A stretch of DNA of 64,000 nt, from assembly GCA_021234155.1 (NCBI GenBank), contig JAJEKV010000026.1, positions 16,048,283-16,112,282 on the forward strand, read 5' to 3'. The notes beneath the pieces are model-generated. The model ran no database searches. It saw only the letters and a list, made by a program, of their open reading frames with translations, and was not told where the DNA came from. Origin of the DNA: Isoetes taiwanensis (Eukaryota > Streptophyta > Lycopodiopsida > Isoetales > Isoetaceae). This document shows, piece by piece, positions 1,409-39,283 of the stretch (positions are counted from its first letter, which is position 1; each line of letters begins with the position of its first letter). Position numbers and translations under genes: made by a program.

Positions 1409-1551
1409 TACTCTGAGCAAGAATTGGGCGGCCTTGAAGATCAAGAAGCAGGGGAAATGGCGCCCCTGGTTTTCGGTGTGGGAAACATTTCGGGCAGTTT
1501 TTTCAGGCAGCGAAAATTAAGGCTAATTGTTTGGTTAGTGGGCAATGAAAA

Positions 1552-2952: not shown

Positions 2953-3204
2953 TGCATCAAGTGAATAAATTGTATCATGTTGAGAACATTCAAGAAGACA
3001 CGCAAGCTGTTAGGGGGGTTTCACTTTTTCTGTGGAAGATGTTCAGCAAGGGTTACAAAAACTTGCAAACCGGAAGGCGGCAGATTCTCTGGGTTTGGTG
3101 GCCGAACTTCTAAAATGGGCTGGGGAGCGGATGGTCAGTGCTCTAGTGCATCTATTGAATGCAATGGCTAGGGATGGTTTTCCTTCTGAGTGGCAGGTTA
3201 ATAG

Positions 3205-6880: not shown

Positions 6881-7204
6881 GGAAGGAAGGAAGGAAGGTT
6901 CTTTTATCATCCGCGGAGGTCAATCGGCCTATGGGACCCAAATTACACGGGTGCAGTAAGCCCGTTGCTACCCGGATTAAAAACCCCCTTAGGAGGGAAA
7001 AACCGTCAAGCAGACAACAAGCCAACGGCAAAATGTATAAATATACATATACATGAATTCCGGACCTCGTGTAGGCGAGAGGTGAGTCCGCGGATCAAAA
7101 CCTCCGAAGGTAAGAGCCAAGGGATCGAACCGACGGCAATCTTGAAGTAGCTCGTGCGAGGGCGGACCAGTCGCACCAAAGAGAATGTAGCGAGCACGAA
7201 TCGA

Positions 7205-8540
7205 CTATAGGTTGGACAGCTCGGAAGGCATGGCTTTCATCCTCAACAAACCCCGGTGGTGGCAACACCGACAAAGCAAAGCCCCGGGCGCGGCTCTCCC
7301 ACCCACCACCATCTCAAGCCTAAGATGGTGGGCCCCTGCTTCGAATGGGCCAGCGATGATCTGCGCTTCTTCATGGGCAATCGAGAATGCAGGTAGAGCT
7401 GTGGGCCTCCGAACCGGTGGGGTTTTATGTGTTGTTTGTAGTGTGCCATCTTTACACTGTTCGAGCATGGTGGTCCCGGCCGCGCCCGAGAAAACAAGAA
7501 TCCAAGTACCCCCTCGGCCTACCTCGGCCGTGATGGTATGCATCTGGGCGCTTTTAATGCGTCTCACGTTCCGGCGATGCCATTTGGGCTCTCTTGTCCT
7601 TCCAACAAGCCTTGAGTCGTTTGAAGTGGGCTCATCTCCACGCCAAAAAGCCAAGTCGCGGGAGCCGAGTGTAAGCCCATGCTGGCCACCTTCTGGAAAT
7701 AAACAATGTGTCTATGTGTCTCCTGCAACAAGATCTGATATGGAGCTGAGGGCTTGACCCCAAGTGCCCGCGTCAAAAATGCCTTCTGGACCTGCTCTAA
7801 GTCGTTCCAAGTCACCAAAGACACCACCGGCCCCACCCTCGACCTCATCTGGAAGAACTGGCTCCACCAGTGTTCGAACAAATGTTACCGGGTGGCCCCA
7901 AATACAAACTCTGCCACCGTGACTATTGCTTTTGCATTGCGTCTGGCCGCCTTCCAACCTCAAGCGGTCACCCGGCGAATGGATGCATCCCAATACATTG
8001 AGGGACGGAAATTCCACCCCCAGGTACTTGTAGGAATGGGTGTGACCTCTACCATCCGCCTCGATAAGTGGCCCGGGAGGTCTTTGGATGACGATGAGGA
8101 GGATATGAGGGACCACCTTAGTCTTGGCCAGGTTGACACGCATGTCCGCCGCTGGCGAATGTGTGCAAGGCATCTAGGTGTGCCCCGCATGCCCTCCGGT
8201 GTATGGGCCAAGAGGTCCATCATCCGCATAGATGAGCCGCCGATGACCTTGGTGCAAGAGTTGTATACCGCCCCCCATTGGCGGAAGCCGGGCTTCCAAC
8301 CGGTCAATGTAAAGTCCAAAGAGTGTGGGTGAGAGGACAACCTTGCCTAACACCAATGCTAATGGCAAATGACTGTCCCTTCCGTTGCATGCGGCCTATG
8401 CATGCCGGTCACACCTGCCTTTGGATTCACTCTCATCCATAGGGAGCCCCCGGATGGTGCAATCTCGCCCACAACTTTTTCCCGGTAATGCGTGGTCGAA
8501 GCTTTGCAAAGTCCACAAAACAGCGACAGGTCCTCCCGAC
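7205..8540 (-). pseudogene. LINE copy III polymerase, C-terminal half
   Basis: On the minus strand, LSPTLFGLYIDRLEARLP and RLIYADDGP (8174-8368) give the palm motifs, followed by MRVNLAKTKVVPHI and YKYLGVEFP (7712-8173), matching copy I. Upstream, LFCGLCKA (about 8500) corresponds to FAAFVDCTKAFDTV of copy I, with the motif frameshifted. Many frame changes follow toward the 3' end. The sequence is old and non-functional. Confidence 0.75.
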
Positions 8541-10175
8541 CGTGGCGTCCCCTACTGCAGATACGGTGCACTCACCGTATACAAACAGAGTTCATCCCCC
8601 ATACCAGCTCCATGCCGATATGAGGGCCCTCCACATAACACCGCAAATGAACGGGTTCCAGGGGAAGAGTGAAGGGGTCATTTACCCGTCTCCCCGTGGG
8701 GCCTACCTAGGCTGCGAAGCGTAAACATACATGTCGGTATACAATAACATCACATATCCACCTCGAAGGGTGGTCCATCACATCTGCATAGACAAAGATC
8801 GATTAAATACATATGGGAAATCCTACCCCGTGCGGACTCAAAGGGATGACCGGCGGCTTGGGTCTCGAGTTCATTGCGCATGCCAAATTCATGGCAATGG
8901 ATTTGGCTGGCATTAGAACATGGCTTAGGGTTGTCCACTCCATCCGCCCCCCCCCACATTGCACACTTTGCGTAGTAGGTGAAAAGTGTCGGGACCTCGA
9001 TCAGAGGCCGTACGGAGGCATAGCCAAAAAGGGCTATTCCCGGTTTCATCCTCCCAGTTCCGATGGGGCAGGAAGGGATCACTCCCTCCGTGAGGTCTAC
9101 ATGCTGACTCAAGGTGACTAGAGGGCCACCGCCCAGTGTTCGACCAACCCACCGAAAGTGTACACCACTTCACGGGTGTCGAGTCCATGCCCCACCCGCA
9201 CTCGGTGGTGAGCCATTAGACCTAGTCACACAGTGATCCCCTGGTAGGCCTTACACACCCTGAGGGATGGCTTCAAGAGTCGGGACATGAACCTCCTTCT
9301 TAGCCGGTCCCTCCCCCTTCACCCACAACCCGTGTGTGGTTCTTGTGCACCTGAGGCGAATCTATAGTGTGCTAGAGAGGCTACTCTAGGAGCATCTACT
9401 ACCAAGCTTTAGGTCTCTACCCCCCTTCCTAATACAAGGAGTTCATAGAGATACATCATCCATATACATCACAGAAGAACTAAAGAACTATATTTAATCT
9501 ACATCATAGAGTTAGGTTCTTTAGTTAGAGGCTGGTATCTAGAGATCTAGAAGGCTGCTATGGGCAATTTAATAGGCTAAACCTACTGATTCTATGACTG
9601 AAATAGGGTTTAGACTATCTAATTGGCCAAATACCTGATCCTTGAGTGGCTCCTCCTGACCTGAGCTCGACTATCCTGCTGAAACGCTCGAATCAAGGGA
9701 AACTAATGGTGCAATTCCCTCAGGCAGAGTCTGGGAGGCGGTTTTGGCTGTTGAGGCAGCCAAAACAGAGTTCTAAAACCCTAGGAACGAAAATGGGCAA
9801 GTTAGGGTTCTCCTACTTAAATAGGCAAGGGGTTAGGCTAGGGTTTCCAATTATCCCCTTTAGACATGTGGGATAATTGGGAATGGGCCCACTTGCCTTT
9901 AATGGCTAGGTGGCCAAATGTGCCCACATGGAAATGTGTGCACCTAAATGGGCCCACATGGAAATGTGTGCACCTAAATGTGCCCACATGGAAATGTGTG
10001 CACCTTAATAAATGTGCATGTGCACATTAATAAGAAATGCACATACCTAGCAAGTTGCCCCCTAGGGGCTACTAGCCTGACTACACATCGGCACCGCCGT
10101 CGGGGTGCGGTGGCGTGTATCGGATTGCAGCGATGCGATAATGCCCCGGGCCGTGATATCGTGGCGAACGCCACA
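8541..10175 (-). mobile_element. solo LTR inside LINE copy III
   Basis: The minus-strand polymerase frame is interrupted between ALVEDSRVKW (right) and the GREDLSLFC segment (left) by about 1.6 kb that is not LINE. It resembles the LTRs at 17076-18590 and 21046-22644, including the stretch with CCTCGAAGGGTGG and the TAGGTCTCTACCCCC block. The right end matches TG...CA form (GCCACA at 10175), and the left end is TGGCGTCCCC. No primer site or internal region adjoins it, so it is a solo LTR. A clean 5-bp target duplication is not visible, so the ends are approximate. Confidence 0.7.
9917..10005. repeat. 31-bp tandem repeat, about three copies, inside the solo LTR
   Basis: The unit contains CCCACATGGAAATGTGTGCA followed by CCTAAATG and repeats about three times with single-base changes. 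It lies near the start of the LTR as read on its own (minus) strand, where upstream promoter repeats are often found. Confidence 0.85.
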
Positions 10176-20274: not shown

Positions 20275-21045
20275 TCTGTGGCCACCAAAAGGGTGTCCAG
20301 GATGCCTATAATAACGTTAAATAGGCTGATCATAACGAGCTTATTCACCCTCCTTGCCAATTTCATTGTAGCAATTCAAGCAAAGATCATAGTCTTCTTT
20401 CCTATGACATGGAACAGGTTTAGAATTTGTCTCGAAATCTCTATAAGTCATATGATTAACTGAATAGACTTATTTAATTGATTTGAAGCGGGGACCAAGA
20501 ATTGAATATAAACCACAACCATCATCTTGGACATGATGATGAAAGACACGTTTAGAATCCCTGCCATAATTGGTTGAGACACGAGGGCTAGATGCTTCTT
20601 CAGCAGCCGGTGACTTAGGAACTTCTGTAGGAGTAACATTCTCACTTGAACTCGTGTTGGGTTGTGCCTCATATGGCTTAGGATGATCAGGTTTTAAAAG
20701 TGCCTCTAGCAATTCGTAAATGCAAAAATCCTTGCAACACTGCATCCTCAAGCTGCTGCAGTTGGGATGATCCTATCTATAAGCTGCTTCAATAGTCACT
20801 TCTTGTTGTTCTTGTGCTTCTCCCTGAGCCTCTGCTTTGGGCTCCACTTTAACTTCCTCATTTTCACTAACCTGGACACTCAATTGGATTGAGTTTCTGT
20901 ACCATGCATGCATCATATACATCTGCATCCCTAGACATAGTCGCAGCGTCTCCATCAATGTCAGAATTATGTAATCGCTGAGGGAACTTAAACGGATTAA
21001 TGCAGATCCAAATACGGTGCTGCTAAGTCAGAGTATGGGGATGTA
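20275..21045 (-). pseudogene. NBR1-like selective autophagy receptor fragment (PB1 end and ZZ finger)
   Basis: NBR1 delivers ubiquitinated cargo to autophagosomes. On the minus strand, SDIDGDAATMSRDADVYDAC (about 20960-20900) and IQLSVQVSENEE resemble the end of its PB1 domain, with acidic DGD and DAD residues. A linker rich in E, P and S follows. RVFHHHVQDDGCGLYSILGP (about 20560-20480) and KEDYDLCLNCYNEIGKE (about 20390-20330) form a ZZ zinc finger, as in plant NBR1. About 75 bp of unmatched sequence between the ZZ halves may be an intron or an insertion. Frames change between PB1 and the linker, and after the ZZ. The left end meets LINE copy IV and the right end meets an LTR, so N-terminal PB1 and C-terminal UBA regions are lost here. 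Confidence 0.7.
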
Positions 21046-22644
21046 TGTGATGTTCCTCTAAAATGTACACTATAAATACGTATATTTATGGGCCACGTCA
21101 CCGTACAAGTCTACTTTAGTAGCCTTGTACATCATAGTTGGTGGAAAAGGGAGCATGGCTAAGTTATTCATATAACTTAGCCAACCTTAGGCATAGGGCC
21201 ATTTCCACATGGCCTCACCCTATTGGGCATCCGCCACATGGAAGCACCCCATTGGAGCCATGTGGCATAACATGCAACCCTAGCCTATAAATGGCCAAAC
21301 CCTAACCCTAGGCCATTTTTCTGGCTCCAACAGTCTGGGAACCTTGTTCGTGCTCTAAACTCCATTTCGAGGACCGTCTACTGTGGCACAACATAGCACA
21401 ACAGTCCCAAGAGCATGAGCGCATCAGTAGGAGTGGGAGCTACTTCAAATCCCTTGAAGGCTATGGAGACACCGGGAGCAGGAGGGAGTTCCTCAGGAGC
21501 AGGTATTTGGGGTTAGAGTTCTTTGTTAATCATCTGGAAGTTAGAATTCCAGATGAGTTAGCATTTCGTATCTCTAGTAGAGCCATTCTAGAACCCTCAA
21601 TCTAGATCTTGAACCCTAATCAATGAACCCTAACTGTAAGTTAGATGCATGTGATTAGGTTAGATGTTATTCTCATTATTATCATGTTATGTGGATATGT
21701 GATGTCGGTTGATCATGTTTTCTCCTCTTGTATGGGGAAGGGGGGTAGAGACCTCGTAGCCACTATTAGATGATGCTTCTAGTTTAGTCCCCACCCAGCC
21801 TGTGCATAGGAATCCACCCGGCTATAGGGGCTATGGAATGACTTAGCGCTGTACAACGAGGATAGTGGCAAAGCGGATGGGGGTCCCTGCTGAACGTGGC
21901 TAATGGGGACCCATAGTGGGCTAGGTCTATGGTCGGTCACTTCGTGTGGGCCGGGTATGGGTTCGACACTTCCTAGGTCAATGGTGTCGCCCTGACCCTC
22001 AGGAGTTGCAGGTGTTGGCCTAGCTCTTGTTTTGGGGAGTTCAGTTGGATATGAATCGTGTGGTGTCCCGATTCTCTAGCCACCCATGGAACCACTAAAT
22101 CTCGGGAAGGGGAGATGGAACCCTTCCTACCTCATCAGACCGGGGAGATGCAACCCGGAGTAGTCTCGATGGGTGATACCATGAGATTATGTATCCGGCA
22201 AGTTATAGTCATACCAGAGCCCGATCTAGCCAGTCTGCAAAGTATGCACAGGAGGGGCAGATGCTAGCCATTGTCTATAGCCAGACCCGCCATTATTATA
22301 TTTTGGTCTGCTCTATCAATCTAGAGAGAAACTTTTCGAATTCTTTGAGCCTGGATAGAAGTTCTTATGTTTTATGGTATGTTGATATCTTTGTTGGATG
22401 TATGGATGTGCTACCCTTCGAGGTAGTTAGATGTATTGCTATTGTTCGTGCGGACATTATATTGTGCTTCCGCTGTATAGGAGCCCATAGGGGAAAAGCG
22501 TCAAGGCACCTCCATGTCCCCTTCCCGCACTAGGGGTATCTTGAGTGCGGGATAGATGGAAGGCCCATGTAGCCAGAAAGCTAGATGGGGGATTTCCTAT
22601 GAGATGTACGTCCAGGCATCGTATATTTAGTAGGAAGCGTCACA
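21046..22644 (+). mobile_element. 5' LTR of a plus-strand LTR retrotransposon
   Basis: It runs from TGTGATGTTCC at 21046 to GCGTCACA at 22644, TG...CA in form, about 1.6 kb. TATAAATACG lies close to the start. The block with CCCTTCGAGGTAG and the AGGTCTCTACCCCC-type block (read on the opposite strand) show relation to the LTRs at 8541 and 17076. It cuts into the NBR1-like fragment on its left. A primer site follows on the right. No partner 3' LTR is visible in the window, so the element is incomplete or extends under the later insertions. Confidence 0.8.
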
Positions 22645-22645
22645 A

Positions 22646-22658
22646 TGATATCAGAGCC
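22646..22658 (+). other. tRNA primer-binding site, plus-strand LTR element
   Basis: TGATATCAGAGCC lies one base after the LTR end. It differs by one base from the canonical initiator-Met primer site TGGTATCAGAGCC. It marks 21046-22644 as a 5' LTR and the sequence to the right as the element's interior. Confidence 0.85.
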
Positions 22659-23222
22659 ATGTTCTTGGTTGACCAAGAACTAGCACTGACCATATCCCTA
22701 GCTAAATAGTCTAACTGGCCTGGTAGAGTATGGGATGAAAATTCCACCATTGAACCTCGAAAATGGGAGGAAATTTTTTTCTCCCAAGTAGTGGGGTCGT
22801 AAAGTTAAGCTAAGTTATTAGATGCAGGGAAAAGAATGAGCCAAATTAACATTCTAATAAAAATTGGAGTGGAAATTATGCATGAGCATCAAATTTCACC
22901 CAAAATGGGTCGAAGAATCATCCCAATCCGAAACCCGGGGTGAAAAATGGCGCAAATCCATAAGTAACACACCAAACCATTAAGAAAATTCGAATTTCTA
23001 ATTATAATAAAGTAATAACTATATATTAATAGTATATATAATAAGTGTATTTAATGGGGGGGGCTAATTAATAGGGCTATTAATGGTAGGGGAATATTCC
23101 TAGCCATAAGAGCATCTTTTCCTTTTTAAATGCCATTCTTGGGTCCCACTCTCTCTAACTCACCCCAAACCTCCCTTTCTTGATCTCCAGTTTAAGCTAA
23201 TCCATTTTCTTAACCGTAAGAA

Positions 23223-24342
23223 ATGGCTAGAACCAAATGCACAGCGAGGAAGTTCAGAAGCCCAAGGTAGACCCCTTTTATGGCAGAGGCGGCAGCAGGT
23301 AGCGGCAAGAAGATCCCGGAGCATCTCAAGCCCGGGAGGGAGGAGGAGGAGCATAACGTTTCGTCCAGCTCCATGAACGAAACCTTCCACACCTCCCACG
23401 AGCGGGCATCCAGCAGCTCGTCGGGAGCTACCCAGAGAACGGACGAGACGGTTGAGCTCGGCACGCCTTCGCCGAGCCAAGAGGAGGAACATCAACAGGA
23501 GGAGGAGCAGCGACAAGAAAAAGTCGGTCCCAGCAATAAGAAGGGGAAGGAGAACGTAGCAGAATGGCCGGAGGATTGGGCATGGAGGAAGAAGAGGGAG
23601 AGGGAGAAGGAGGCGAGGAGAAAAGGTCCAAAAGGAACCAAGATCGGCCAAGAGGGACTGTGCACATCGAAGAACCTCGTCGGGAGGCAATCGACGAGGA
23701 GGAAGAGGAGAAGGACGAACAAGAGGAAGGTGGCGAGCAAGAGGAGGAGGAAGAGCCCCGAAGGGGATATCGGGGAGACATCCAACCCTGACGCCCGTCC
23801 ACCCTACCCGAAGTGGCCCAAGCCACCAAAGGTAGTGAAGAAGCAAAACGTGGGAGAGCACGAGTTCATGCTAAAGCAGGACCGCGAGTTTGAAAGAAGG
23901 AAGAAGGCATACCAAGAATACCTCCGGAGGTGGAAGAGGTACAATAATTGATACTGCAAACAAAACTTACATAAGTACGTTAAGGGTGACAAGCCAAAGA
24001 ATCAGCCGAAGCCGCCACCACCACGGCCAGAGCCTTCGAAAAAGATCCACCATGGACCTAACTCGAAGCACGCCCGGGTGTTTCGGGAGATTAGGCACTT
24101 TCAGCAGTGCACTAATCTCTTGATCCGGAAGGCGCCGTTCGAACGGCTCCTCCGAGAGATCATACAGAACTTCTGGACCGACTATAGGATTACACCCCCC
24201 TAACAGTCCAATCCTTGCAAGAGGCAGCAGAGGCGGAGCTGATACAGTCGAGGAAGGCAATTTGTGTGCCATCCATGTGAAGAGGGTAACAATGATGTCC
24301 AAGGATCTCCATTTGGCTAGGAGGATCCGTAAGGATTGTACT
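23223..24342 (+). pseudogene. histone H3-like reading frame inside an LTR element
   Basis: The frame opens with MARTKCTARKFRSPR, close to the H3 tail start MARTKQTARKS, keeping the positions of K4, R8 and K9. A long charged region follows (about 240 codons, E/R/K-rich, largely open as 23280-23951). Then comes a segment aligning with the H3 core: [36 protein letters not shown], then text like LQEAAEAEL and [20 protein letters not shown]. These match helix alphaN through alpha3 of H3. The frame is broken, about four interruptions. No introns are apparent. It begins 565 bp after the primer site, where gag would normally sit. A captured H3 or centromeric-H3-type gene is the simplest reading; an element-encoded chromatin protein is the alternative. 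Confidence 0.75.
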
Positions 24343-24625
24343 AAGATAATTTTATATATAAAAAAAATACTTTTTTTTTGTATAAATCAATTTAATGTAA
24401 AATCTTTCCTAATGTAATTAAAATGTTGCCTCAATAATTAGGTCACTACAATATTAGGTCACTACAATAATGACATTTCGGAAAATCTTGGTCTTCACAG
24501 GGTCGCAGTGAGGCGCCATGTGAGGCGCCGTTTGCCGTTTCCGTGTGTATCTCTCTCCTCGGGTGTCAGATTTGGACAATTTTTGGTGCGTTGGAAAGCT
24601 CGAACTGTAAGCTTTCCATCGGTAT

Positions 24626-26340
24626 ATGGCATCAAGCAGCCCAACATCGGAATCAGTGCCGGATTTAGGGTTTCCCATTTCGGCCTCTATGGTTAACCCT
24701 GGTATGTCTTCCTCAGTTGTTATGTCTTTTGTCAATTCTGCTTCCATGGCTTTCTCTTCTGTTTCTGCCTCCCCTATGCAATCTAGTGCTTCTGTAATTC
24801 CTCCTTCCTTGCTTGCTAACTCACGTCTCAACCCTCTTGCTTTTGCACATCCTTCTGCTAGTGCATCCACTATTTTGCAACAATTTCCGCCTCTCACTGC
24901 TTCCTCATCTGCTGCAATTGCGAGTCCTTGTTCTCCTGTACATCCTAGTCCTCGTGCTTCCCATTTTTCTTCTACCTCTGTTGGATTTTTGTCTTCTACT
25001 CCTTCCTCTTCTGCGGGTCTTCTGCCTGCTCCTGCCTCTGCTCCTGCTCCTTGGACCTCTAGTGATACAATTGCTCGTGTGTCACGTGCACGCTTTAGTG
25101 ATTGGATAAAGCATGATATGACATCTGGTATACGCTCTGCTCGTGTTACGGCTGCTGTGAATATTTTGATGGAGAATAATAAGAAGGAAGTGTCTGCATA
25201 CTTGAAGGAGTTACAGGCTGCGGAAGATAAGATGGACATTCAACTCCCTTCAGAGAGTGTCTTTTACGAGATTAATGAGTGTGCCAATGCTTTCACACAG
25301 GCGGGGCTTCCTGTAGTTGAGATTGATCACGGGGTACATTTATAGTGTATTCAGAATCTTGTCTCTCATGCGGTTGTGTGTCACTTTACTAGTCAGTTTG
25401 TCGATCTTAGATGGATGGGCTTTTGGTTAAAGCGGCATCTACAGAGATTGGGTCTACCCCAGATGAGTCTTTGAAGGTCCTTGATAAGCAAAACAATTAT
25501 TTCCTGATCATGTTTGGGTCTCCCATAGCGGTTGATAAGCTGGTGGAGCGGGGAGTAGATCCTTTATGGGGGCACTATCTTTTGTATCAGGTATACACTC
25601 CTGGCTTTTTGCCTAGCAAGACTAGTGCACTTCTGGTTTGCCTTGGAAGATTTTCCTATTGAGTGCAAGTTCCAGAGTTCATGATGGCTATTGCTAGTGG
25701 CTTGGGTCTCCATCTTGCTCATTCTATTGTGAATGGTCCTCGTATTTGCGTCGCTCTTCCAGCTGATGCATCTCTTCTAAAATCTGTTGTGGTCAAAAGT
25801 GGTCCACTGTTCAAATATGGCTACTTAATGGTCCTGAGCTTGTAGACATGTTTCCTGATGCTGAGGCATTCTCTAGTTTTCGCATTAGAAGAACACCTCC
25901 CTTTGCTCCTGCAACAACTGCAGCCCATGGCCCAGTGTCTCTATCTTCCTTTGATCCCTCTCCAGTCTTGGCAGCTTCGGGTTCTAGCCAGTCTGCTTCT
26001 GCTCCTGTGTCTATTCCTGCCCCTCTTTCTTCCTCTCCTCCCTCCTCCTCTGCGTCCCAAGCTGCTTTTCCTGATGAGCAACGTGAGAGGCTTGCAGTCA
26101 TTGCACGCAAACAGGAACGACTAGAAGTATCTCGAGGTGAGTGGTCCATCCCTCATATGAAGAGAGTTGCCCGTCGGAGAAACACTATTGCACCACAATA
26201 TCTTCCTATTGAGTGTGTTACTCCAGCTGAACCAGCAGTGGCTACCATTGTTACAACCCTTCCTGCGTCCTCTAGACTGACCTGGCTGATCAGGTGGAAG
26301 TATCATCTGCTAATAGTGACTCCATGGATTTGGAACACCG
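24626..26340 (+). pseudogene. L1 ORF1 (RNA-binding protein region)
   Basis: ORF1 of plant L1 binds element RNA. It starts MASSSPTSESVPDLGFPISA and has a long S/P/A-rich N-terminus. The section KQNNYFLIMFGSPIAVDKLV and YQVYTPGFLPSK (25485-25620) resembles the DUF4283-type domain found in plant L1 ORF1. VPEFMMAIASGLG and GPRICVALP follow. A charged end (PDEQRERLAVIARKQERLEV) precedes ORF2. It is interrupted by stops at 25345, 25662 and 25845 and by shifts between them. Confidence 0.75.
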
Positions 26341-26361
26341 GCCACCAGACCCCCCTGCATT

Positions 26362-28148
26362 ATGAAGCTGGTTTCTTGGAATGTTCGGGGTGTTGCTTCT
26401 TCCCCAACTAAAAGGAGCAGACTTTCCACGGCTCTTGCTAGGTTGAATTCAAATTTCTATTGTCTACAAGAGCACAAGTGCAAAAAAGAGGATGTGCAAA
26501 AGGTAGCTTCTGTGGTTGGTAGGAAATATAACGTCTTGGTGGCTGCAGCAGACTCGGCAAAAGCGGGGGTCCTTTCAACATGGAGACATGATATAGCAGT
26601 CACATTCAGTCATGCTGACAGATTTGGTCGCTGGATCATTATCAAGTGGTTTGATAAGGGACAAGAGTGGGGACTAGTGAATGTGTATGCACACAATAGA
26701 CCTCATCAGAGAGGTGCACTCTGGGCTGCTTTGAGATCCAAACTAGTTCGACTGGGGGCTCATGTTGCATGGTTGCTGGTGGGTGAGTTGGAAGTTGATC
26801 GGTGCGGTAGAGGATCAGAAGTCATCCAGGGCTTTGAACGTGAACAATGGCAGCGCTTGATGTATGTGTGGTTTGGTAGAGGTAGATGGTGATGGAACCT
26901 TCACTTGGTGCAATGGCTGGCTTGGAGCTGGTAGAGCATATGCACGTCATGACAGGGGCTATTATAATGCATTGGCAGCTACATATTTGCATAATTTCTC
27001 TCGCCAAAACATGCTTGGCAGCTCTATTTCAGATCACAATCCGTAGTATTTCTCTTGTTCTCATGATGGGGCACATAGCAGGACCAAGACTTATTTCAAG
27101 TTAAACACTTCATACTTGAAGGATGAGGAGTTTAAAGATGGATGCAAGCAAGCCTGGTCCTCTGCATTTGTGAGAAGGAAAGGAATGGCTGGGATTGTTG
27201 ATGCTCTAGCTGCCGTGAAGTCCTTTGCTAAGAATTGGGGTCGTCGGCGAGTTGCTGCTAATCGAGGGATTTTGATTGCTCTGTACCAACAATTAATGGC
27301 TTGCAGGTCTGTTGTACCATCAGATGCCCAGCAGGAGAAGCAGATTTTGGCCAACATTAGACAGATGGAAGCTGAGCAAGTTCATCACGCTCGAGTTAAA
27401 GCGGGCCTGCAATGGTTCAAAGAGGGGGATCGATGCACAGGCTTATTTTTTAGAGCTGCAAAAATTCGGAGACAAGCTTCTGCGATGGTGTCTCTTCCAA
27501 GTTCAAGATGGGCCTCTCACCTCTGATCCTCAGCAACTTAAGTTCTTTCTGCATGGCCATTTTTCTTCTTTTTTTGCTTCTCGTCGTCTTCCCTTCCAAT
27601 CAGATTTTCAGGAGGCATTACTGGCAAAGATACATCCTAATATATCTGAGGAACAAAGAGCTACTCTAAGCAGAGATTACAGTGAATGATTTGGCAGATG
27701 CTACCTACCTTTGAAGAAAGAAAAGTGTCCTGGAGTTGATGGTATTCCTGTAGAGTTCTTTCAGGAGTTATGGGATTGGGTTGGCGATGATGTGTACGAC
27801 GCGTTTCAGGATTTCAAGAGGCAAAGGCGTCTAGATAAAATTCTTAACTCGGGCTACATTTCTCTTATTCCCAAGTGTAAGGAACCTTCAACAATTTCAG
27901 ACTGCACAGTCAGGATTTCTGCCACGACGATGCATATTAAACAATGTAGCGGCTGCCTATGAAGCTATTTACTGGGCTCGACTTCAGGGCCATGAAATTG
28001 TATATTTGAAGCTGGACTTTGCAAAAGCATATGACAGTGTCGACTGGGCCTTCTTAGAGAAATGTCTCTTACGCTTTGGTTTTGGTGCACAATTCACAGC
28101 TGATGTCATCAGGCTTCATTATTCTGCTTGCTCTTCTATTCTCTTCCA
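26362..28148 (+). pseudogene. L1 ORF2, endonuclease and first half of reverse transcriptase
   Basis: The start MKLVSWNVRGVASSPTKRSR is the classical L1 endonuclease N-terminus with catalytic Asn; LQEHK follows with Glu. The usual GDFN motif reads VGELEV, so a key residue is lost, while ISDHNP is kept near 27040. The polymerase half has CPGVDGIPVEFFQELWD (27727) and LKLDFAKAYDSVDWAFLEKC (28008-28067), with the first catalytic Asp present. It stops at 28148 (SILFQG), where the Ty3-type element is inserted. At least four frame breaks are visible. Confidence 0.9.
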
Positions 28149-28153
28149 AGGGG

Positions 28154-29677
28154 TGTTAGCCTAAAACCTGGAATTTTAGTCTAACCTCAAGGAAGCTCAA
28201 ACAAAATGGTTAGGACCTCCAGATCACTTAGGGTGATCAATCCTTAACATATAAAGCGAGAAAAGTCATTTTGGAATGCTAGTTTTTTCAAAATCACTAC
28301 AGTCCCTGAAACTGAAAAAACTGTCAGAGCAAAAACTGACCTAGAAGACACACCTTTTGAGATTTTTGGGATCTGGTTGGTGGTACGGATGGTTAACAAT
28401 CAGAAGAAACTCCTGGTAAAAATTTGGCTTGATTTGGATAAAGGAAGGTCAAGAAAACCGAGGTCAAAGTCAGGTCAAAAAGTTGGCCAGTGCCAAAACA
28501 GAGAGCCAAATTTTGCAGATGGAGTTTGATAAGGAATTTTGAGTTGAAATCTGTGCAGGCAACTTCAAAATAGTCTCTAGATCACGTGCATAAGTTTTAA
28601 ATAGTAAAAAGATGTTTTAGTTTTTTCTGAGAATAGCCAAAGCCTCAAGAAAAAGGCAAACTCTGTAACAGTTATGAAGAAAAATCCTGTTATAGGTTTT
28701 CTTTGGATGTATAGGCTCCTAGGATCATTATGAGGATGAAATATAACTATTTGAATGGGATATAACTTGAAGTAAATATTTTGGCTTTGTATTTTGGTTT
28801 TTTAACTTTAACAAACAATACAAGATTTTACAAGATAAATGAATAATGATGACAATAATTTTTCCAGGCAAAGAATGTATATTATAGCAAGATAATACAG
28901 AAAGGTCCAATGGTATTAAAAGGTATTACCCAAATAATGATGCTTGAGAGCAGATTCCAGAGCAGTCTGAGCTTCTAGGAAGCCTCAAACTACCCAAGAA
29001 GCAAAATGAAGAAATTTCTTGAGTTGCAGTGGAAGCGTCACGCCATGGTAGATCTTCAATTTCGAGCAGAATAGAACACAATTTGAACAGAGCAGAACAA
29101 GATAATATCAAAATGTCGAATGCGCCAAGATCACAGAGGTCTATCTCTGAGGGGACGTGCTGATTTGATCTGTCCTCCTGACTTAAGAATTGTTCTTCCC
29201 AAAAGCTAGCTCGGCCGAGTGATTTTAGGCCAAATTTGAGCAATTTCTAACGGATCAAGTGCCACAGAGGATCCCCAAGGTCTCGGAAAAGAGTCAGGAG
29301 ATAATTTCGGGTGAAAATTGGCGGGATTCAATCAAATTTAGGCACGAATTGGCCGGATTTAGCAGGCTCCCCTATTTTTTAGGGTTCATTGAAAAATTCT
29401 TGAATGCCATATATCCCACAGGCTAAAATGGTTCTGGAGGCTCCTGTATATAAGGCATAATGCTGACCCAGCTAATAACTGTGCGTGCCACGCAGAGGGG
29501 ACACCCAGCCCGTGTCTGGCCCCCACGCCCTGCTGCCACGTGGAAATGGGAATGAAAAAGGGGGGGGAGGGTGATGTGGAAACGATGTAGGGATGATGTG
29601 GAAATAGATAGGGTAGATAGGCTAGAATAGGTTTTTTATTTTTATGGCACGCATCCCAAGAATCCAAATTTGAAGGC
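28154..29677 (-). repeat. left arm: inverted LTR copy of the Ty3-type element
   Basis: This arm is the reverse complement of 34783-36701 once the LINE fragment there is set aside. The same 60-codon shadow frame appears at 28728-28910 (minus) and 35558-35740 (plus), showing near identity over that part. Its outer end is the same LTR terminus as the element's right end. Confidence 0.9.
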
Positions 29678-29698
29678 TTAGAATCCAAATTTGAAGGC

Positions 29699-29969
29699 AA
29701 TTTTCACCAGGAGTTTCTTCTGATTGTTGATCATCTGTACCACCAACCAGATCCCAAAAATCTCAAAAGGTGTGTCTTCTAGGTCAGTTTTTGCTCTGAC
29801 AGTTTTTTCAGTTTCAGGGACTGTAGTGATTTTGAAAAATCCAGCATTCCAAAATGACTTTTCTCGCTTTATATGTTAAGGATTGATCACCCTAAGTGAT
29901 CTGGAGGTCCTAACCATTTTGTTTGAGCTTCCTTGAGGTTAGACTAAAATTCCAGGTTTTAGGCTAACA
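29699..29969 (+). repeat. 271-bp direct copy of the LTR 3' part
   Basis: It starts AATTTTCACCAGGAGTTTC, ends GGCTAACA, and is nearly identical to 36432-36701 in the same orientation. It is joined to the inverted left arm through a short duplicated stretch around AATCCAAATTTGAAGGC. It directly abuts coding text of an RNase H-like domain rather than a normal primer site. Confidence 0.9.
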
Positions 29970-32900
29970 TTTTGGAGGTTCTATTCTGAAGGATGCAGAT
30001 CTTAAGCTGATGACTAAGATAGGGAGAATTCATCCTAATATTTCTTCTAATGCAGCAGAGTATAGGGCCCTCATTGCAGGCCTACAGGAAGCAAGGTTCA
30101 TGAATATTTCCTATATTGTTATCTATGGAGACTCACAACTCGTTTGCAAACAGATTTTGGGAGAATGCCAAACAAAACATCAAGATATGGAGGATCTGAA
30201 CACACAAGCTCGAGAATTGCTAACTTTTTTTGATCATTGGGAGATTTATCATATTCCAAGGTCCAAAAACTTTGAGGCTGATTCTTTGTGCAGGAAAACA
30301 CTCTTAGAGCATTTATCTGAGGGAGCTATCAAGGAAGATGTTCTAGATGAAGATGAGCTCTCTCAATTTCATCCTATCTTGACCATCAACCTAGCACAAG
30401 AGGAATCACACAAAAGAGCTTGAAGTGCATAAGGAAGGTATGTCTAGAACTTTGCAAATGGGAGATCTATATGAAGAGGAATGCAAAGGTAAAATGGTTA
30501 AGTACTTTGAAGATTGGGTGGATGTTTTTGCATAGGAATATTCGAGTTGAAAGGGGTTGATAGAAGCATTTGTGAGTTTGAGATAAAAGTTCGTGAAGAT
30601 ACTAAACCTGTTATCGCGAGATTGAGAAGGATTAATTCCTCACTTTTAGATCCGATCAAGCGGGAATTATTCAAAATGCAGGAGTCGTTTGATAATTGAC
30701 ATTGTGAACCCTTCTTGGGTTTCTTGTATTGTTCCAGTTCTAAAAAGAATGGTTCTCTAAGAATATGTGTGGATTATAGAGATCTCAATAAAGCTACTTT
30801 GTTAAAGATTGTTACCCTTTGCCTTTTTGGAAGAAATCCTTTATGCAAGGGTCGCAAGTCTATGTACTCATTTTGGATGGTTTCTCCGGTTTTAATCAGA
30901 TTAGCATAAAAAGGAGGATCAGCCCAAGACATCCTTCATTACTCCATGGGGAACTTACGCAATGAAAAGGATGCCTTTTGGATTAATGAATGCCCCTCGC
31001 TACATTTCGAGCTATGGATACCGTCTTTGCAAGCATGACTCTGAAAGCAATTCGAGAGTCTATCTTGATGATTTATGCCTAGGTACTGATACAAGTGATC
31101 ATATCTCGAGCTAACAAGGGTATTTACATTGTGCGCATGACAGACCGAGTTAATCTAAATCCCAAGAAGTGCATCTTTTGGCATCCAAAGGCCAGCTTTT
31201 AGGCCATGAGGTTTTTCGCTAAAGGCCTTCAAGTAGTCAAAGAGAAGATCATAGCTTTAAAAAGCTTCAAACACCCAAGACAATTAAAGAAGTCAAGGGA
31301 TTTATGGGAATGACCTCTTTCTTAAGGGTGTATGTGCCTAATTTCTCTCACCTTATTAGTCCTATCTCCAAATTGACTAGAGTAGGCCAAGTTAGTAAAA
31401 GAGAAAGTAAATATAGGCCCGTTGTTTGACTGATGAGTGTGAAAAAGCTTTTTGCAGATCATAGAGGCTATTTGCCATTCTACACTTTTAAAAAACTCCA
31501 GACCTTTCATTGCCATTTAAAGTTTATATAACCATTACTAAAAAGGCTCTTTGGAATTGCTATTTTGCAGGATAGGCACCCCATTGCTTTTGCAAGCAAA
31601 CAATGGTCTCAAACTGAGGAGAAGTATGCTAAGGTAGAAAGGAGTGCTGCTGCTCTCATCTTTTTGATAGAGAGACAGGGACATCTTCTACAAAAATCCC
31701 AAGCCACTATCTACATGCAAAGAGAACCCCATGCCTTTCTTGTATGGTAAGAAATTAGAAAAACCCAAGCTTCATAGATGGGCTTGTAGGCTCCAATCTT
31801 ATGATTTAAAGGTAAAGGTCATTCATGTATTGAACAATCCGAGTTTATACTTACCTGCTGCCTACTTTGAACATGAGGAGGTTGTACAAGAAGAAGAAAT
31901 GACTAACCTTGTTGTAAATGAGCAGGACTTGTCAGATATACAAGCTCAAGGTTGGCAACAACCTATTAGGAGATTCCTTCAGTATCAAGAGATACCTTCT
32001 GAATTTTCAAAAAGCCAAGCTTACAAGTTTAAGTTAAAATGTTTGACTTACTCTTTGGTTGGTGACATTTTGTGCAAGGTAAACAGGGATGGTGTACTCT
32101 TAAGGTGTGTTGATGAAGTTGAAGTGCCCCGGTACTTTCTTTTAAAATCACAAAGGTGTTTGTGGTGGTCATTTTGCGCCAGACAATAACCGCCAAGAAA
32201 ATATTGAGGTCTGGTTACTTTTTGGCCTCATTTATTTAAAGACTGTTATGATGTTATAAAGACTTGTCACCAATGCCGGATCTTTGGCAAAAGAATCTTG
32301 CATCCCCGCTCCTCTTACAGAATTGTCTCCCCCGGTCCATTTCAAGTTTGGGGATTGGACTATGTTGGCCCTATCAATCCCCATCCTCAGCCCAAAGAAT
32401 GAATACATTGTTGTAGCTACGGATCTGTTCACTAAGTGGTCGAAGCAAAGACCCTTAAGGAAAGCAAATGCCCATACTATCGCTAGATTTTTGCATGAGA
32501 ATATTTGCTCTAGGTTTGGCATTCCATTCAAAATTTTGACCGATAGAGGCTCTACTTTTATTAATGAGGTTATTAATTTCCTTGTTTCAAGCCTCAAGAT
32601 CAAGCATGTGAAAAGCTCAGCCTATTATCCTCAAGGAAATGGCCAAGCTGAGTCTACTAACAAAGTGCTTAAGGGTATTTTGCAGAAAACAGTTTGCCAA
32701 AACCAAAGGGATTGGCCCTTGAAATTATATGATGCTCTTTGGGCTCATAGAATTACTTCTAAAGCAGCTACTAATGCCTCACCTTTCAGTTTAGTATATG
32801 GAGTAGAGGCAGTCATTCCAATGAGTTAGAGATACCCCTCTTTAAGGATGGCACTCAAGCTTGAGTTGGAGATTTCGAAGCCTTGAAGCACCGTGTATGA

Positions 32901-33130
32901 AGTTCGTTAAAATTGGATGAAGAAAGGTTTGTTGCGTAAACAACTTGTTGAAGAAGGCTAAGAGTGCAGCAGAAATTTTCAAGGCTGCTCACAAACTACA
33001 AGATAAGTTTGCACCTATGGAATTAGTTTTGAAGTGGAATGTTGCGGATGAAGGAAAGCTTTCCAAGTTTGAAAACCCCCCAGGAGGGTCCTTATCGATT
33101 TTAGAGGAGGTCTGGCTGCTCATCTTATAG
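29970..33130 (+). pseudogene. Ty3-type pol fossil
   Basis: In order there are an RNase H-like domain (FGGSILKDADLKLM, NAAEYRALIAGLQEARF, IYGDSQLVCKQI; 29972-30423), a Ty3-type reverse transcriptase (LRICVDYRDLNKA near 30760; later MPFGLMNAP), a second RNase H region (HPIAFASKQWSQTEEKYAKV, 31570) and an integrase core (FTKWSKQRPLRKANAHT, FGIPFKILTDRG, SSAYYPQGNGQAESTNKVLK; 32430-32700). The family makes a polyprotein cut into these enzymes. The copy is broken by roughly ten interruptions. An RNase H-like domain ahead of the polymerase is unusual. Confidence 0.85.
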
Positions 33131-34782
33131 ATTGACGGATCTTGGTACAGTTTTTAGAGTTGCCAAACCCCATTAATATTCAACACCTTAAAAGATATTG
33201 GCCTCAAAGATGCCCGCTAAGCCTATTCACTTCTATATAGACATTTGTTCTAGCTTAGAATAGGTTAGTCTATAGCTTAAAGTTGAGGTTTTAAAATTTC
33301 TTTTGATTTGCATATTTCCTTTGAGGATTAATAGTGTTTTTTTTTTTTTTTTTTCTAGTCTGCAGGGGATGTGGCCCACGGGGGATAAGACTTTGATCAT
33401 TACCTACTCATGAGTTCTATGTTGTCATGACAGGGCCATTTGTCAAAACATTTCATCTGTCTTTTAAACTGGCCTATTCTTCATAAGACCTTGCTTCTTC
33501 ATTGGAGTTCTAGAGTGCTATCCATATATAATTTTCCATATCTTGCTTGGCACTCATGCTAACTTTGATTTTAATGTCATATGCAGGACCATCCTTTTCT
33601 CTTCCATTTCCATCTGCCTATAAGTTGCCTTACATACCATTTCAGCCTTCTATTTTTTATTCTCATTCCCTACAATACTCTGCACCACATTTCCACCATA
33701 GCAGAGTTCATCTCATACTCATACCACTCCCTTTCATCATTCTACATCATTCTGTCACCTGCACCAGTATCTGAAGATCCTCAGCCTAAGTTTACATCTG
33801 TTAGGCTGAGGGGACCAGCCTATCCTTTCCTTTGAGGAGATGTTGCCCATTTTTGGCAACATGGACCAGCATCTATGTATCAAAACTTTTGTCTCATCTA
33901 TATTTCCTCTAAGGAAAAGTTCCAGGCTATTGTGATCCCATTAGAGTTTGGAAGACATTTGACCAAGATTGGAAGGCATTGGGGATCTCCTTTTATAGCC
34001 TAGTCTTTTCCTTGAGGTAAAGCACCTTTCTAGACACATTCCCATTTGTTTAACATTTTTCCTTTGATTTGAAGACCAGGCAAAGGCTATAGCAAGTTTA
34101 TCAAGGAGCCACAAGGCATTTCATCAAAGTTCAACCTTATGAAGCTTATTTGAGTTGCATTAGTAATTTTGAGGTCACACACATGAGAATGCCATCTTGG
34201 AAGTGAAATTTGCTCTTATTCTAGCCTCGAAGTTTGGAAGACCCTTATAGAAGTTTGGAAGACCCTTAGGCTTTTGAGCAAACTTATTTTCACTATGAGG
34301 TATGATTTGAGCTTTAGAAACAATTTGAGATGAGATCAAGTGCTACTGAGGGTACCCATCTTCTCTTCATTCCATTCATCTTATATCCACCTTTTCATGT
34401 TCCAAGAGCCTTCATGAAACCTTTCTTTCACCATTTTTCCACCTTTGAGTCCTTTTCTCATCATTCCACTACCCAAATTTTATTGGTCCTACCTTCATTT
34501 GAGAATTGCCCCCTAATGATCTTGAAAACCTTCAAAGGCAAGAAAACTCTATTTTCACCCTCATTTCATCCTCCTAAACCCTATTATAGCCTATTTACAC
34601 CTTTTCCCCATCTCTTTCCCATGATTTTTTCACCATCCCCCAAGTTGCGAGATTCATTGACCATGGGTCAAAAGGGACCAAAATTCAAATGTTTCAGTTT
34701 GACCTAAAATCTCTCTAGATGGAAAGCTTGGCAAAAAAGAGCTAATTTGGTCTTTTAAAATTTGAAAAAAACCCTTGGGAAG
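33131..34782 (+). other. non-coding stretch between pol and the right LTR
   Basis: There is no frame related to a known protein. It includes a T run (33339-33355), a pyrimidine-rich part (34350-34650) and a small local repeat of GAAGTTTGGAAGACCCTTA near 34250. The purine-rich GAAAAAAACCCTTGGGAAGG just before 34783 may be the polypurine tract, or part of the LTR may begin earlier. Confidence 0.5.
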
Positions 34783-36701
34783 GCCTTCAAATTTGGATTC
34801 TTGGGATGTGTGCCATAAAAATAAAAAACCTATTCTAGCCTATCTAGCCTATCTATTTCCACATCATCCCTACATCGTTTCCACATCACCCCCTCCCTTC
34901 TTCATTCCCATTTCCACGTGGGCGTGGGGGTGCGGGGCCGACACTGCCGGTGTCCCCCTAGCATTAGCACGACGCTATTAGCCGGGTCAAGATTATGCCT
35001 TATATACGAGAGCCTCCGAACCATTTTAGCCTTGTGGGATATATGGCATTCAAGAATTTTTCGATGAACCCTAAAAAATAGGGGAGCACGCTAAATCCGC
35101 CAATTGCGCCTAAATTTGATTGAATCCCCGCCAATTTTCACCCAATTATCTCCTCGACTCTTTTCCGAGACCTTGGGGATCCTCTCAGGGCACTTGATCC
35201 GTTAGAAATTGCTCAAATTTGGCCTAAAATCACTCAAATAGAGCTAGCTTTTGGGAAGAACAATTCTTAAGTCAAGAGGACATCAAATCACCGACGCCCC
35301 TCGTAGATAGACCTCTGTGATCTTGGCGCATTCGACATTTTGATATTATCTTGTTCTCGCTTCTGCTCAAATTGTGTTCTATTCTCTTTCGAAATTGAAG
35401 ATCTACCATGGCGTGACTTGTTTGACATCAAAACGCCTCCACCGCAACTCAAGAAATTTCTTCATTTTGCTTCTTGGGTAGTTTGAGGCTTCCTAGAAGC
35501 TCGATCGCCTCGAATCGCTCTCAAGCATCATTATTTGGGTAATACCTTTTAATACTATTGGACCTTTCTGTATTATCTTGCTATAATATACATTCTTTGC
35601 CTGGAAAAATTATTGTCATCATTATTCATTTATCTTGTAAAATCTTGTATTGTTTGTTAAAGTTAAAAAACCAAAATACAAAGCCAAAATATTTACTTCA
35701 AGTTATATCCCATTCAAATAGTTATATTTCATCCTCATAATGATCCTAGGAGCCTATACAGATCAGCGGTACATGAAGACACACATCTCTTTGTATCTCA
35801 GGAAGACCATTGCACGTTATAGAACCTGTTCACACCATTTAAATGTAGAAACAGGGAGATGGGCTTCTATTCCACGAGATGAAAGACTATGCACTTTATG
35901 TAGCAGCCATGAGATTGAAGACGAGCAACATGTCCTACTGGAATGTTCGGCATACGTAGACATTAGAGTGAAGTTTCATATTGATGTAAACAATTTGTAT
36001 ATGCTGTTCGATATTGATCCTAGAACATTAGGTTCATATCTTAAAGCGGTGGAGTTACACCGGGATTTATTATTGAAAGTAAATACTCTGTAAATTCACT
36101 CCATAACCTTCAAGGTTCCACGGAGTAAGATCAATACAATACAATACATCCAAAGAAAACCTATAACAGGATTTTTCTTCATAACTGTTACAGAGTTTGC
36201 CTTTTTCTTGAGGCTTTGGCTATTCTCAGAAAAAACTAAAACATCTTTTTACTATTTAAAACTTATGCACGTGATCTAGAGACTATTTTGAAGTTGCCTG
36301 CACAGATTTCAACTCAAAATTCCTTATCAAACTCCATCTGCAAAATTTGGCTCTCTGTTTTGGCACTGGCCAACTTTTTGACCTGACTTTGACCTCGGTT
36401 TTCTTGACCTTCCTTTATCCAAATCAAGCCAAATTTTCACCAGGAGTTTCTTCTGATTGTTAACCATCTGTACCACCAACCAGATCCCAAAAATCTCAAA
36501 AGGTGTGTCTTCTAGGTCAGTTTTTGCTCTGACAGTTTTTTCAGTTTCAGGGACTGTAGTGATTTTGAAAAAGCAGCATTCCAAAATGACTTTTCTCGCT
36601 TTATATGTTAAGGATTGATCACCCTAAGTGATCTGGAGGTCCTAACCATTTTGTTTGAGCTTCCTTGAGGTTAGACTAAAATTCCAGGTTTTAGGCTAAC
36701 A
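34783..36701 (+). repeat. right arm: plus-oriented LTR carrying a LINE fragment
   Basis: This arm is homologous to the inverted left arm. TTATATACG at 34997 is a candidate promoter TATA element in the same direction as pol. It contains a later LINE insertion at 35761-36143. The end GGCTAACA is followed by the target duplication AGGGG. Confidence 0.85.
35761..36143 (+). mobile_element. 5'-truncated LINE fragment (C-terminal zinc motif) in the right LTR
   Basis: The left arm lacks this segment, so its borders are clear. ATACA flanks both sides (35756-35760, 36144-36148). It encodes ARYRTCSHHLNVETGRW and then CTLCSSHEIEDEQHVLLEC, a CX2CX9HX4C motif, and LKAVELHRDLLLKVNTL before a TAA. The 3' end is a short CAATA repeat. 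It is the same clade as LINE copies I-V, truncated so that only the ORF2 end and 3' UTR remain. The frame (35740-36093) is intact. Confidence 0.9.
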
Positions 36702-36706
36702 AGGGG

Positions 36707-38523
36707 AATCCTCAGCATTCTTTCAGGTGGGTCGTGGCATCCGTCAGGGCTGCCTTTTAGCTCCATTGTTATTTACAGTTGTGGCAGAGGTCCTTGCCCA
36801 GGTCTTCTCTCTTGCCGCACAGGAGGGAATCTTGCATGGACTTCCTATGAACAATGGGTCGCAAGAGATCTGTAATCAATATGCAGATGACACTTTCCTT
36901 TTTCTGAGGGCAGATGAGCAAAATTTGCAGAATGCCGTTTCCTTGTTGGATTCTTTTTCCCTAGCATCTGGTATTTTTGTGGGTTGGCAGAAGTGTACAG
37001 CACTATGGGCATTGGACTCTCCAGTTCCACCATGTGTAGCTGCCTATCCATGGAAGATCCTTCCCCATGGTAAAGCAACCAAACTTCTCGGTATCCCTGT
37101 AGGTGTTCATATCTCATCAGGGGATGCGTAGGAGGCAGTGATTAAGGGCTTGGAAAAACACATTTTCTGGTGGTCCACAGTGAAGCTTTCCATGGCAGGA
37201 CGAATCGTTGTGGTTAAGTCAGTTTTAAGCAGCACCCATATGTATATGGCTTCGTTCATGTTGGCTCCACAGTCAAAGATACAACTTCTCGTCAGGCTTG
37301 TTAGGAACTTCATCTGGGGGGGAACAGAGGAGGGTGCTGTTGTCAAAGTCAGTTGGGAAAAGTGCATGTTGCCAAAGCATTTTGGCGGCCTTGGAATGAT
37401 CAATTTTCTTTTGCAAAACAAGGTGATGATTTATAAGTTTATTTGGAGAATTTTGAGTCCCCGGGTTCCCATCTTGTTTATCAGTCTTTGCAAATGTGCT
37501 TTTTTTTTGGGTCTCGATCTCTTAGGCCACTTTTCCTCTGGGCTCTGTTTTATCCACTGACTGCATACCCTAATGCGTCCCCATTTCTTAGAGGACTGCT
37601 AGTTGCATGGGAGACTGTACAATCTCTGTTTCATTTTCACCATCTTGGGCACACTAGCACTACTGCAAGTTGTTGGTGGATTCCATTGGACGGTGGTCCT
37701 CTAGTAGCTTCAGTCCACCCATTGACGCAGCGTCGATGGAGAGCAGCAGGTGTACATATGATATCTGATTGGTCTAATAATCAAAGGCAGTTGCTGACAT
37801 GGGAAGAGTTTAGAGCTAAGTTCCTCCTTTTAAGGTGGGATCGAGCTATTTGGCAGAAGGTGTCTTCAATTCTTCCTCTAGTAGCACAAGTGGATGACTC
37901 CCAGCCTTGGGTAGTTCATGAGCATGTTAAAGCAGATAAGTTGGTGAATTCCATGCACAAGGTCTTGCTTGATGCTACGTCTTGCCTCCTTCGTCCAAGT
38001 GGCCTTTGGTCATTCCTAGGGATCGACAGAAAGCAGTATGGAAATGGGTATGGGACAAACTACTCCATCCCAAAGTATTTGTTTTATGGTGGCAAGTCAC
38101 TCATCGTTGTCTGCGCGTTAATATTCTGGTGCACAGATTTCGTCTGCACTTTGTCCGTTATGTGCACAGAGGGACGAGACAATTGAGCATTGCTTCTTCC
38201 TATGTAGACATGTCAGACATGCTTGGTTATGGCTTCAAGGCCTCTTTCATTGCAATTTGAATAGTCAGCAGGTGTTATTAGCAGTCTATCCAAATAGTTG
38301 GGATAATTTGGCAAAAAGGTTTCATTTGGCTTCTGCATGGATCATTTGGTCCATTTGGAAAAGAAGGAATCTTCTCATATTCAAAGGTCTTGCTTGTTCA
38401 GATGCACAGATCCTTCTTGATGCCCAACAACGAATTATCAAAGCATTCAGGTGCTCATCAATTGCTAATGAGGTGAAGAGCCGTATTTGGGAGCACTATC
38501 TTCAGATTCATACTTACTTATGA
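36707..38523 (+). pseudogene. L1 ORF2, second half of reverse transcriptase and zinc-binding C-terminus
   Basis: It continues the L1 polymerase after the insertion. VGRGIRQGCLLAPLLFTVVA (36727) and NQYADDTFLFLRAD (36875) keep the YADD catalytic pair. GKATKLLGIPVGVHIS and STVKLSMAGRIVVVKSVLSS match the thumb and connection of plant L1. The C-terminal domain has KAVWKWVWDKLLHPKVFVLW (about 38028), the zf-RVT signature. The end is RIWEHYLQIHTYL and a stop at 38523. Frame breaks occur near 37131, 37500 and 38150. Confidence 0.9.
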
Positions 38524-38683
38524 GTTTTTGCTTCTTTATATTGTTTAGATGTTGTATTTGAGTGGGGTGGTTTTGCTCTGGTGGACATTCTCTCCACTGA
38601 GTTATTAGTCCCCATTGTACTCTGTAACTTTCTCTGGATAATAAAGGCTCAAGTACTTCAAAAAAAAAAAATAATGACATTTC

Positions 38684-38789
38684 AATTATTTTTTGGTATC
38701 CAATTCAATTCAATTCAATTTATATTACTTTGCTTTAATTTCCCTACATCTTTATTTTTATAGCCTTTGGCGTGCCTTTTTCTAGTGTT
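38684..38789. other. short AT-rich gap with CAATT repeats
   Basis: It lies between the L1 target duplication and LINE copy V. It contains four CAATT units (38700-38720), and otherwise I see nothing in it. Confidence 0.6.
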
Positions 38790-39271: not shown

Positions 39272-39283
39272 GATATAAGGGTC

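Follow-up and report, generated by a model that had tools for sequence, protein, structure and literature searches.

Positions 21046-24342 of the window, by which we mean the whole 64,000-nucleotide stretch of Isoetes taiwanensis DNA that was analysed, are confirmed as the 5' part of a broken LTR retrotransposon that carries a histone H3-like reading frame. The 5' LTR of this element (21046-22644, forward strand, as are all parts of the element) has the ends TGTGATG...CGTCACA and is a genuine repeat in the genome of this aquatic lycophyte, which was searched over 1,658,258,908 bases in 1110 contigs; out of 8884 first-look candidates, 40 were scored and gave 50 matched pieces, with the other full-length LTR matches being 80-97% identical. 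Here and below, first-look numbers are candidates and not counted copies. No second copy of the LTR was found in the 64,000-nucleotide window, the element having a 5' LTR only. Directly behind the LTR lies the primer-binding site TGATATCAGAGCC (22646-22658), which we take to be of the initiator methionine tRNA type, and the untranslated leader fills the interval between the LTR end and the ATG (22645-23222).

The reading frame, hereafter ORF1, begins at 23223 with MARTKCTARKFRSPR (23223-23267), where nine of the first ten residues are those of H3 (MARTKQTARK), and it is cut by a TAG at 23268. It continues as a charged linker rich in E, K and R, open for 226 residues and devoid of any Pfam family (23271-23951), and then as an H3 core split over three frames, namely a piece from alpha-N to alpha-1/loop 1 (24078-24188), an alpha-2 piece in another frame (24191-24247), and a piece from the end of alpha-2 to alpha-3 (24241-24330). 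Two pieces of the window exceed the Pfam Histone (PF00125) cut-off of 26.4 bits, with 35.1 bits in 23952-24203 and 31.3 bits in 24124-24417. Thus far the preliminary description of this DNA had been accurate, since the place and content of the H3-like frame behind a 5' LTR, its MARTKCTARK start, the initiator-Met primer site, and the broken state of the frame were all found as it had given them. The homology to another copy (L042, the single copy compared) ends within 24331-24362, near 24362, and neither ORF2 nor the gag-pol of the chromovirus lineage described below has a match near this 3' end. LINE-like sequence, not part of the truncated element, follows at about 24450-28153 (forward strand; boundaries approximate and judged by eye from the reading frames), and its endonuclease match of 19.2 bits lies below the cut-off of 24.5.

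Other remains of mobile elements were seen in the window. On the reverse strand, 17453-18000 matches part of the LTR at 66% over 559 aligned columns, and may be an older remnant of this LTR superfamily in the opposite orientation. Other Ty3/gypsy remains at 29968-32829 (RVT_3 RNase H, 63.8 bits; integrase core, 38 bits) are far from the chromovirus pol, at 24-45% identity, and a reverse transcriptase fragment at 60041-60672 on the reverse strand is 30-42% identical to the chromovirus RT. Furthermore, 20445-28153 and 36700-39469 of the window form a segmental duplication with C911:2215000-2224999 (L036), about 96-98% identical, while some 8.5 kb of the window (28153-36700) are absent from that copy. 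The C911 copy of the element is 96% identical to the stretch in the window, and because the match extends into the flank for 601 bp beyond the LTR start, it is a segmental duplicate and not independent evidence.

The family of the window element, called family B, was searched with the 1120-bp segment 23223-24342, which gave 1559 first-look candidates; all 40 that were scored match, the main segment matches besides the window being 73-97% identical, and 25 of the 39 scored matches other than the window span the query from base 8 or earlier to base 1106 or later. Twelve copies were fetched (L037-L048). All 12 have the H3-like core and ten have the 3' end of the LTR upstream, at 510-570 bp from the ATG in nine of these ten and at 91 bp in L047, with L038 and L048 showing no upstream LTR match at 1e-5. 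The genome-wide check of LTR and segment proposed in the preliminary description has thus turned out positive, family B copies carrying the H3 segment at the same place. Counting the window, its C911 duplicate and the 12 fetched copies, there are 14 family B rows, and in the 13 rows other than the window the ORF1 start lies at the same place, with changes; it is exactly MARTK in seven of the 14 and exactly MARTKCTARK in five. No unbroken ORF1 was found in any of the 14. The tail start, linker and core nevertheless belong to one frame, because L042 has a single 296-residue frame from the charged linker through the H3 core, and L037 a single 161-residue frame from MARAKCTARK into the linker, and these bridge them. 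Downstream of L042, the locus L050 matches ORF2 weakly (26% over 100 residues, E 6e-7) and also matches gag (E 5e-49), so that the single family B copy followed to this distance is laid out like the better-preserved family A.

Family A came from a genome-wide histone profile search, in which 150 of 8705 first-look candidates were scored; 135 of the 150 fall outside the full-length canonical type. The first 15 of these 150 align from profile position 2, and eight of them, taken as loci, all encode canonical H3; among the remaining 135, most align from about profile position 10-25 onward, and many lie within open frames of 300-494 residues. From these 135, with long frames favoured, 19 loci were fetched (L017-L035), and all 19 proved to be ORF1. 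Their order is LTR, primer-binding site, ORF1, ORF2, gag, RT, so that the H3 frame forms an ORF of its own ahead of gag, and the "gag position" first assigned to it has to be given up. The primer-binding site is present with at most two mismatches in 14 of the 19, and ORF1 is open from the ATG in 18 (400-459 residues, with starts assigned by motif); in L029 it runs beyond the usual stop and L033 has a short deletion. ORF2 was found in 18 of the 19 loci, gag in 15 and RT in ten, counts that are limited because each locus was read for 10 kb. In L018, capsid, PR and RT were detected in this order. As separate observations, the LTR and leader of L030 are repeated at oriented positions 1289-3523 and 7072-9323 with 95.5% identity, probably a nested or tandem arrangement, and a second, diverged H3 alpha-2/alpha-3 fragment (48% over 42 residues) lies beside the family A element at L020:827-952.

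One complete case, L028/L049, has both LTRs, 93% alike and ending in TGTGACG...CGTCACA, the primer-binding site TGGTATCAGAGCC (from which that of the window differs by one mismatch), a polypurine tract aaagaggagaaaa ahead of the 3' LTR, and a 5-bp target site duplication, CAATC, on both flanks, the latter two being read by eye. Its domains are ORF1 with H3, capsid (gag)-PR-RT, and then RNase H, H2C2, integrase core and chromodomain. The H2C2 zinc domain reaches 73 bits, above its cut-off, the integrase core 29.6 bits, below its cut-off of 32.6, and the Chromo domain (PF00385) at the C-terminus of pol 32.9 bits with a cut-off of 25.1. L028 is without ORF2, its pol is interrupted by one stop after RT and ahead of RNase H, and none of the loci was read over its full length with all parts intact. 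As in chromoviruses, the ORF1 elements have LTRs, primer-binding site and polypurine tract, with gag-PR-RT-RNaseH-INT in that order and a Chromo domain at the integrase end, and every one of these marks, together with the second LTR and the target site duplication, was found in L028/L049. Pfam scans of the ORF1 elements gave no hAT domain, and instead of the TIRs and transposase of a hAT transposon they have LTRs, RT and integrase. The best explanation for the window copy is that it is an old, truncated member of a Ty3/gypsy chromovirus lineage with an H3-fold ORF1.

Read from its sequence, the ORF1 protein of family A has an H3 fold at its C-terminus, preceded by a charged linker and by a novel domain at the N-terminus, and this N-domain of about 200 residues occupies, together with the linker, the place of the H3 tail. 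Unlike canonical plant H3 and H3.3, it has an extension of some 300-360 residues where their tail stands; the canonical tail MARTKQTARKS is absent from the 19 family A loci, and family B retains about ten H3 tail residues before diverging. There are three N-terminal types, MPRFK/MSRFK, MEEVK/METxK and MANTK, the second and third having N-domains 33-35% identical to the first. A search of 5.8 billion proteins with the N-domain (residues 1-215), in which 2195 candidates were scored, gave no relative at 1e-3, and neither the N-domain nor ORF2 showed a known fold by sequence in Pfam or in the PDB (best E 0.33 and 0.25, respectively). A relationship between the N-domain and ORF2 was tried and rejected (hhalign probability 0.2%). 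ORF2 has one public relative, P0121, 42-43% identical over its whole length on an ENA contig of 2953 bases, so the element lineage may exist outside the I. taiwanensis genome. In order to lessen the bias from picking loci by histone score, the N-domain of a single type was also used by itself as a query against the genome, which gave 2745 candidates; the 150 that were scored lie on 84 contigs, 41 of them are in a frame that stays open for 400 residues or more, with no stop in the match, and 47 have one of the top-150 histone matches 603-1061 nucleotides downstream, 20 of the 47 within such a long frame.

The H3 fold itself scores 142-144 bits with Pfam Histone in three family A ORF1 proteins and, in a comparison of three ORF1, shares 84-88 of 98 core positions with host H3, an identity of 86-90%. 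The best PDB sequence match of L018 is Histone H3.3 (7ux9). Another ORF1 type (five of the 19) has Y41, H87 and L90, which we take to be the plant H3.3 signature. Within the MPRFK type (12 proteins, 66 pairs), the core has a median dN of 0.028 and dS of 0.60, compared with 0.141 and 1.6 for the N-domain and 0.194 and 1.05 for the linker, and in the second type (ten pairs) core dN is 0.009 and dS 0.25. The 19 loci were taken from the best histone scorers, and the core dN is biased downward because of this choice; it may also be kept in mind that the core dS of 0.60 is lower than the N-domain dS of 1.6 within the same proteins. Compared with eight host H3 genes (152 comparisons), the core has pN 0.10 and pS 0.94. 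From these substitution values, the H3 core is the most constrained part of ORF1, and we regard it as nearly certain that an H3-bearing ORF1 exists in this LTR lineage and is retained by selection.

The residues of the core point in the same direction. With lists of H3-H3' interface and DNA-contact positions that we assume to be the relevant ones, all eight interface positions are invariant, and as in host H3, in 19 of 19 family A cores, and eight of 11 DNA-contact positions are invariant in the same 19; of the variable contacts, R42 and K64 show R/K exchanges only, and a single copy has C in place of R63. In family B, the majority residue of seven cores is that of the host at eight of eight interface positions and at nine of the ten contacts covered, position 42 being S. 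Only residues seen in the host occur at 67 of 97 family A core positions, while positions 60, 64, 86, 87, 89, 102, 105, 107, 124 and 134 are changed in most family A copies, with I124L common to 18 of 19 A and seven of seven B cores. This pattern fits, as would be expected of such a fold, a protein still meeting H4, a second H3 and DNA.

We suggest the following mechanism. The ORF1 protein would pair with host H4, would use the host pathway of H3-H4 import and assembly, and would become a part of chromatin or dock on it, presenting there the N-terminal domain of the element in place of the tail that can be methylated at K9 or K27. Pairing with H4 or entry into chromatin seems to us somewhat more probable than its opposite, and we favour the reading as a whole to the same degree. 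The likeliest benefit would be either that the chromatin of the element is shielded from silencing or that element complexes are tethered to chromatin for integration, anti-silencing and tethering being about equally likely. In other elements, according to the accessible parts of PMC9289625 and PMC2864245, the chromodomain is described as a reader of histone marks, and because the integrase here carries one, a reader of histone marks and a histone-like partner would be united in one element. That nucleosomes of ORF1 and H4 on element DNA, lacking the K9/K27 tail, might escape host silencing, or might mark integration sites for the chromodomain enzyme, is a tentative proposal that we consider possible but less likely than not.

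The alternative that survives best is that the histone fold serves only to travel with importins, ASF1 and NASP along the import and chaperone pathways of the host, or to package the nucleic acid of the element in particles, without ever being nucleosomal. The conservation of the core would also fit H4 and chaperone binding without nucleosome entry, the N-terminal extension, at roughly 300-360 residues, is large for part of a nucleosome, and most A copies are changed at 86, 87, 89, 102, 105 and 107, some of which make up the stretch that distinguishes H3 variants for chaperones. However, the DNA-contact residues and the H3-H3' four-helix bundle are kept, though needless for such a role, and we rate chaperone or packaging use as rather unlikely, and less likely than anti-silencing or tethering.

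With respect to origin, the best explanation is that an H3 coding sequence was captured by the element lineage long ago, one or more times. The preliminary description had proposed both the capture of an H3 gene and a family-encoded H3-like protein with a long charged tail, and both hold, the latter through the open ORF1 frames of related family A that end in an H3 fold. It had also raised a centromeric H3, and a domain that derives from or mimics CENH3, directing the element or its protein to centromeres, was weighed accordingly. The core of the window family has EIRHFQ..TNLLI, letters that we take to be as in Arabidopsis CENH3, and in a tree of 99 columns the grouping of B with CENH3 was not rejected (p 0.33; with plant CENH3, p 0.12). 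In the same tree, family A forms one group (91/73) outside CENH3, which is separate (89/84), and the best tree sets A and B together apart from the rest without support (48/69), so that the window family is not placed by it; B_L040 was left out because its core is frameshifted, and B_L037, L042, L044, L047, L036 and the window because their single-frame match is shorter than 80 residues or gapped. Against CENH3 stand the lack of a CENH3-type loop-1 insertion in all 19 A and eight B cores aligned, the MARTKCTARK start of the window family, the spread of the 150 N-domain matches over 84 contigs, and the identity of three B cores to host H3 at 54-56 of 92-93 positions versus 40-47 for two plant CENH3, a comparison that covers the CENH3 of other plants. 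Mainly because the loop-1 insertion is absent and the start is of H3 type, the centromeric reading is disfavoured and appears improbable.

Even less probable is passive carriage, in which an H3 trapped in one element would have been copied along without use. Gene fragments are common cargo of transposons, every copy of the window family that was read is broken, and a fungal hAT element with H3, according to the accessible text of PMC3538342, demonstrates that H3 can be trapped. But between ORF1 types the synonymous sites are near saturation (pS 0.79-0.92) while the cores have pN 0.09-0.13, the core is kept in the two further N-domain types despite their low identity to the first, and the long frame of at least 400 residues is open in 41 of the 150 copies that were picked by N-domain and not by histone, all of which makes a useless passenger unlikely. 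Finally, a host H3 pseudogene adjoining an LTR by chance, which the preliminary description had named as the refuting case and which the window copy alone would permit, is refuted by the independent family B copies, with the same LTR end 91-570 bp upstream in ten of 12 and the core in 12 of 12, and is further opposed by the complete element with its target site duplication in related family A, so we assign it practically no likelihood.

A general amplification of histone genes was considered separately and rejected with an H4 control in the same genome, a control limited to H4. All 69 H4 candidates were scored, giving 43 matches, of which 16 are full-length genes and the rest partial or diverged. 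No large H4 family was found among these 69, and since there are only these 16 full-length genes, the amplification is not common to H4.

No histone in an LTR retrotransposon was found in the literature searched, the scope of which left most subscription papers and all bioRxiv preprints outside, and in the accessible main text of the Isoetes taiwanensis genome paper (PMC8566536) the word histone is absent. Ty3/gypsy chromoviruses with chromodomains, including Tcn1-like ones, are described in non-seed plants in the available parts of PMC2864245, where a figure legend mentions an additional ORF of unknown function in the elements drawn and no encoded histone. Unlike those chromoviruses, the ORF1 elements have two extra ORFs before gag, the first ending in the H3 fold. 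The nearest precedent, according to the accessible text of PMC3538342, is a hAT DNA transposon family of Pyrenophora tritici-repentis that carries H3L, and in both cases a mobile element amplifies an H3-like gene beside an ORF of unknown function. The hAT family, as described there, is a DNA transposon with TIRs and 26 very similar copies, its H3L having its own N-terminal tail, whereas the Isoetes case is an LTR element in which a large novel domain is joined to H3 and selection has acted over a long time, and its H3 copies appear more numerous than the 26 of H3L, given the 135 non-canonical among 150 scored histone matches. Phalaenopsis Ty3/gypsy elements with an AlkB (2-ODD) ORF are similar in that a captured host-type domain in an additional ORF is kept over many copies, but differ in the domain and in the lineage (dual RNase H, Tat-like), and a screen of 121 angiosperm genomes, covering angiosperms only, yielded 15 extra LTR-element domains, none of them named histone, in the accessible parts of the same source (PMC9289625).

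The ORF1 of the Isoetes elements lies upstream of gag, like the extra ORF of Ogre/Tat elements, which belong to a different pol lineage. We know of no histone fold in the extra ORF of Ogre/Tat.

Chromatin silencing is a main defence of plants against retrotransposons, and the retained histone suggests that these genomic parasites use it to deal with plant chromatin. A lineage that keeps a near-canonical H3 fold under strong selection provides a testable case of a parasite using a building block of host chromatin, and the ORF1 series amounts to a set of natural H3 variants with the tail replaced. By the same token, genome counts of H3-type domains should be taken with caution, as these can be mostly transposon-borne.
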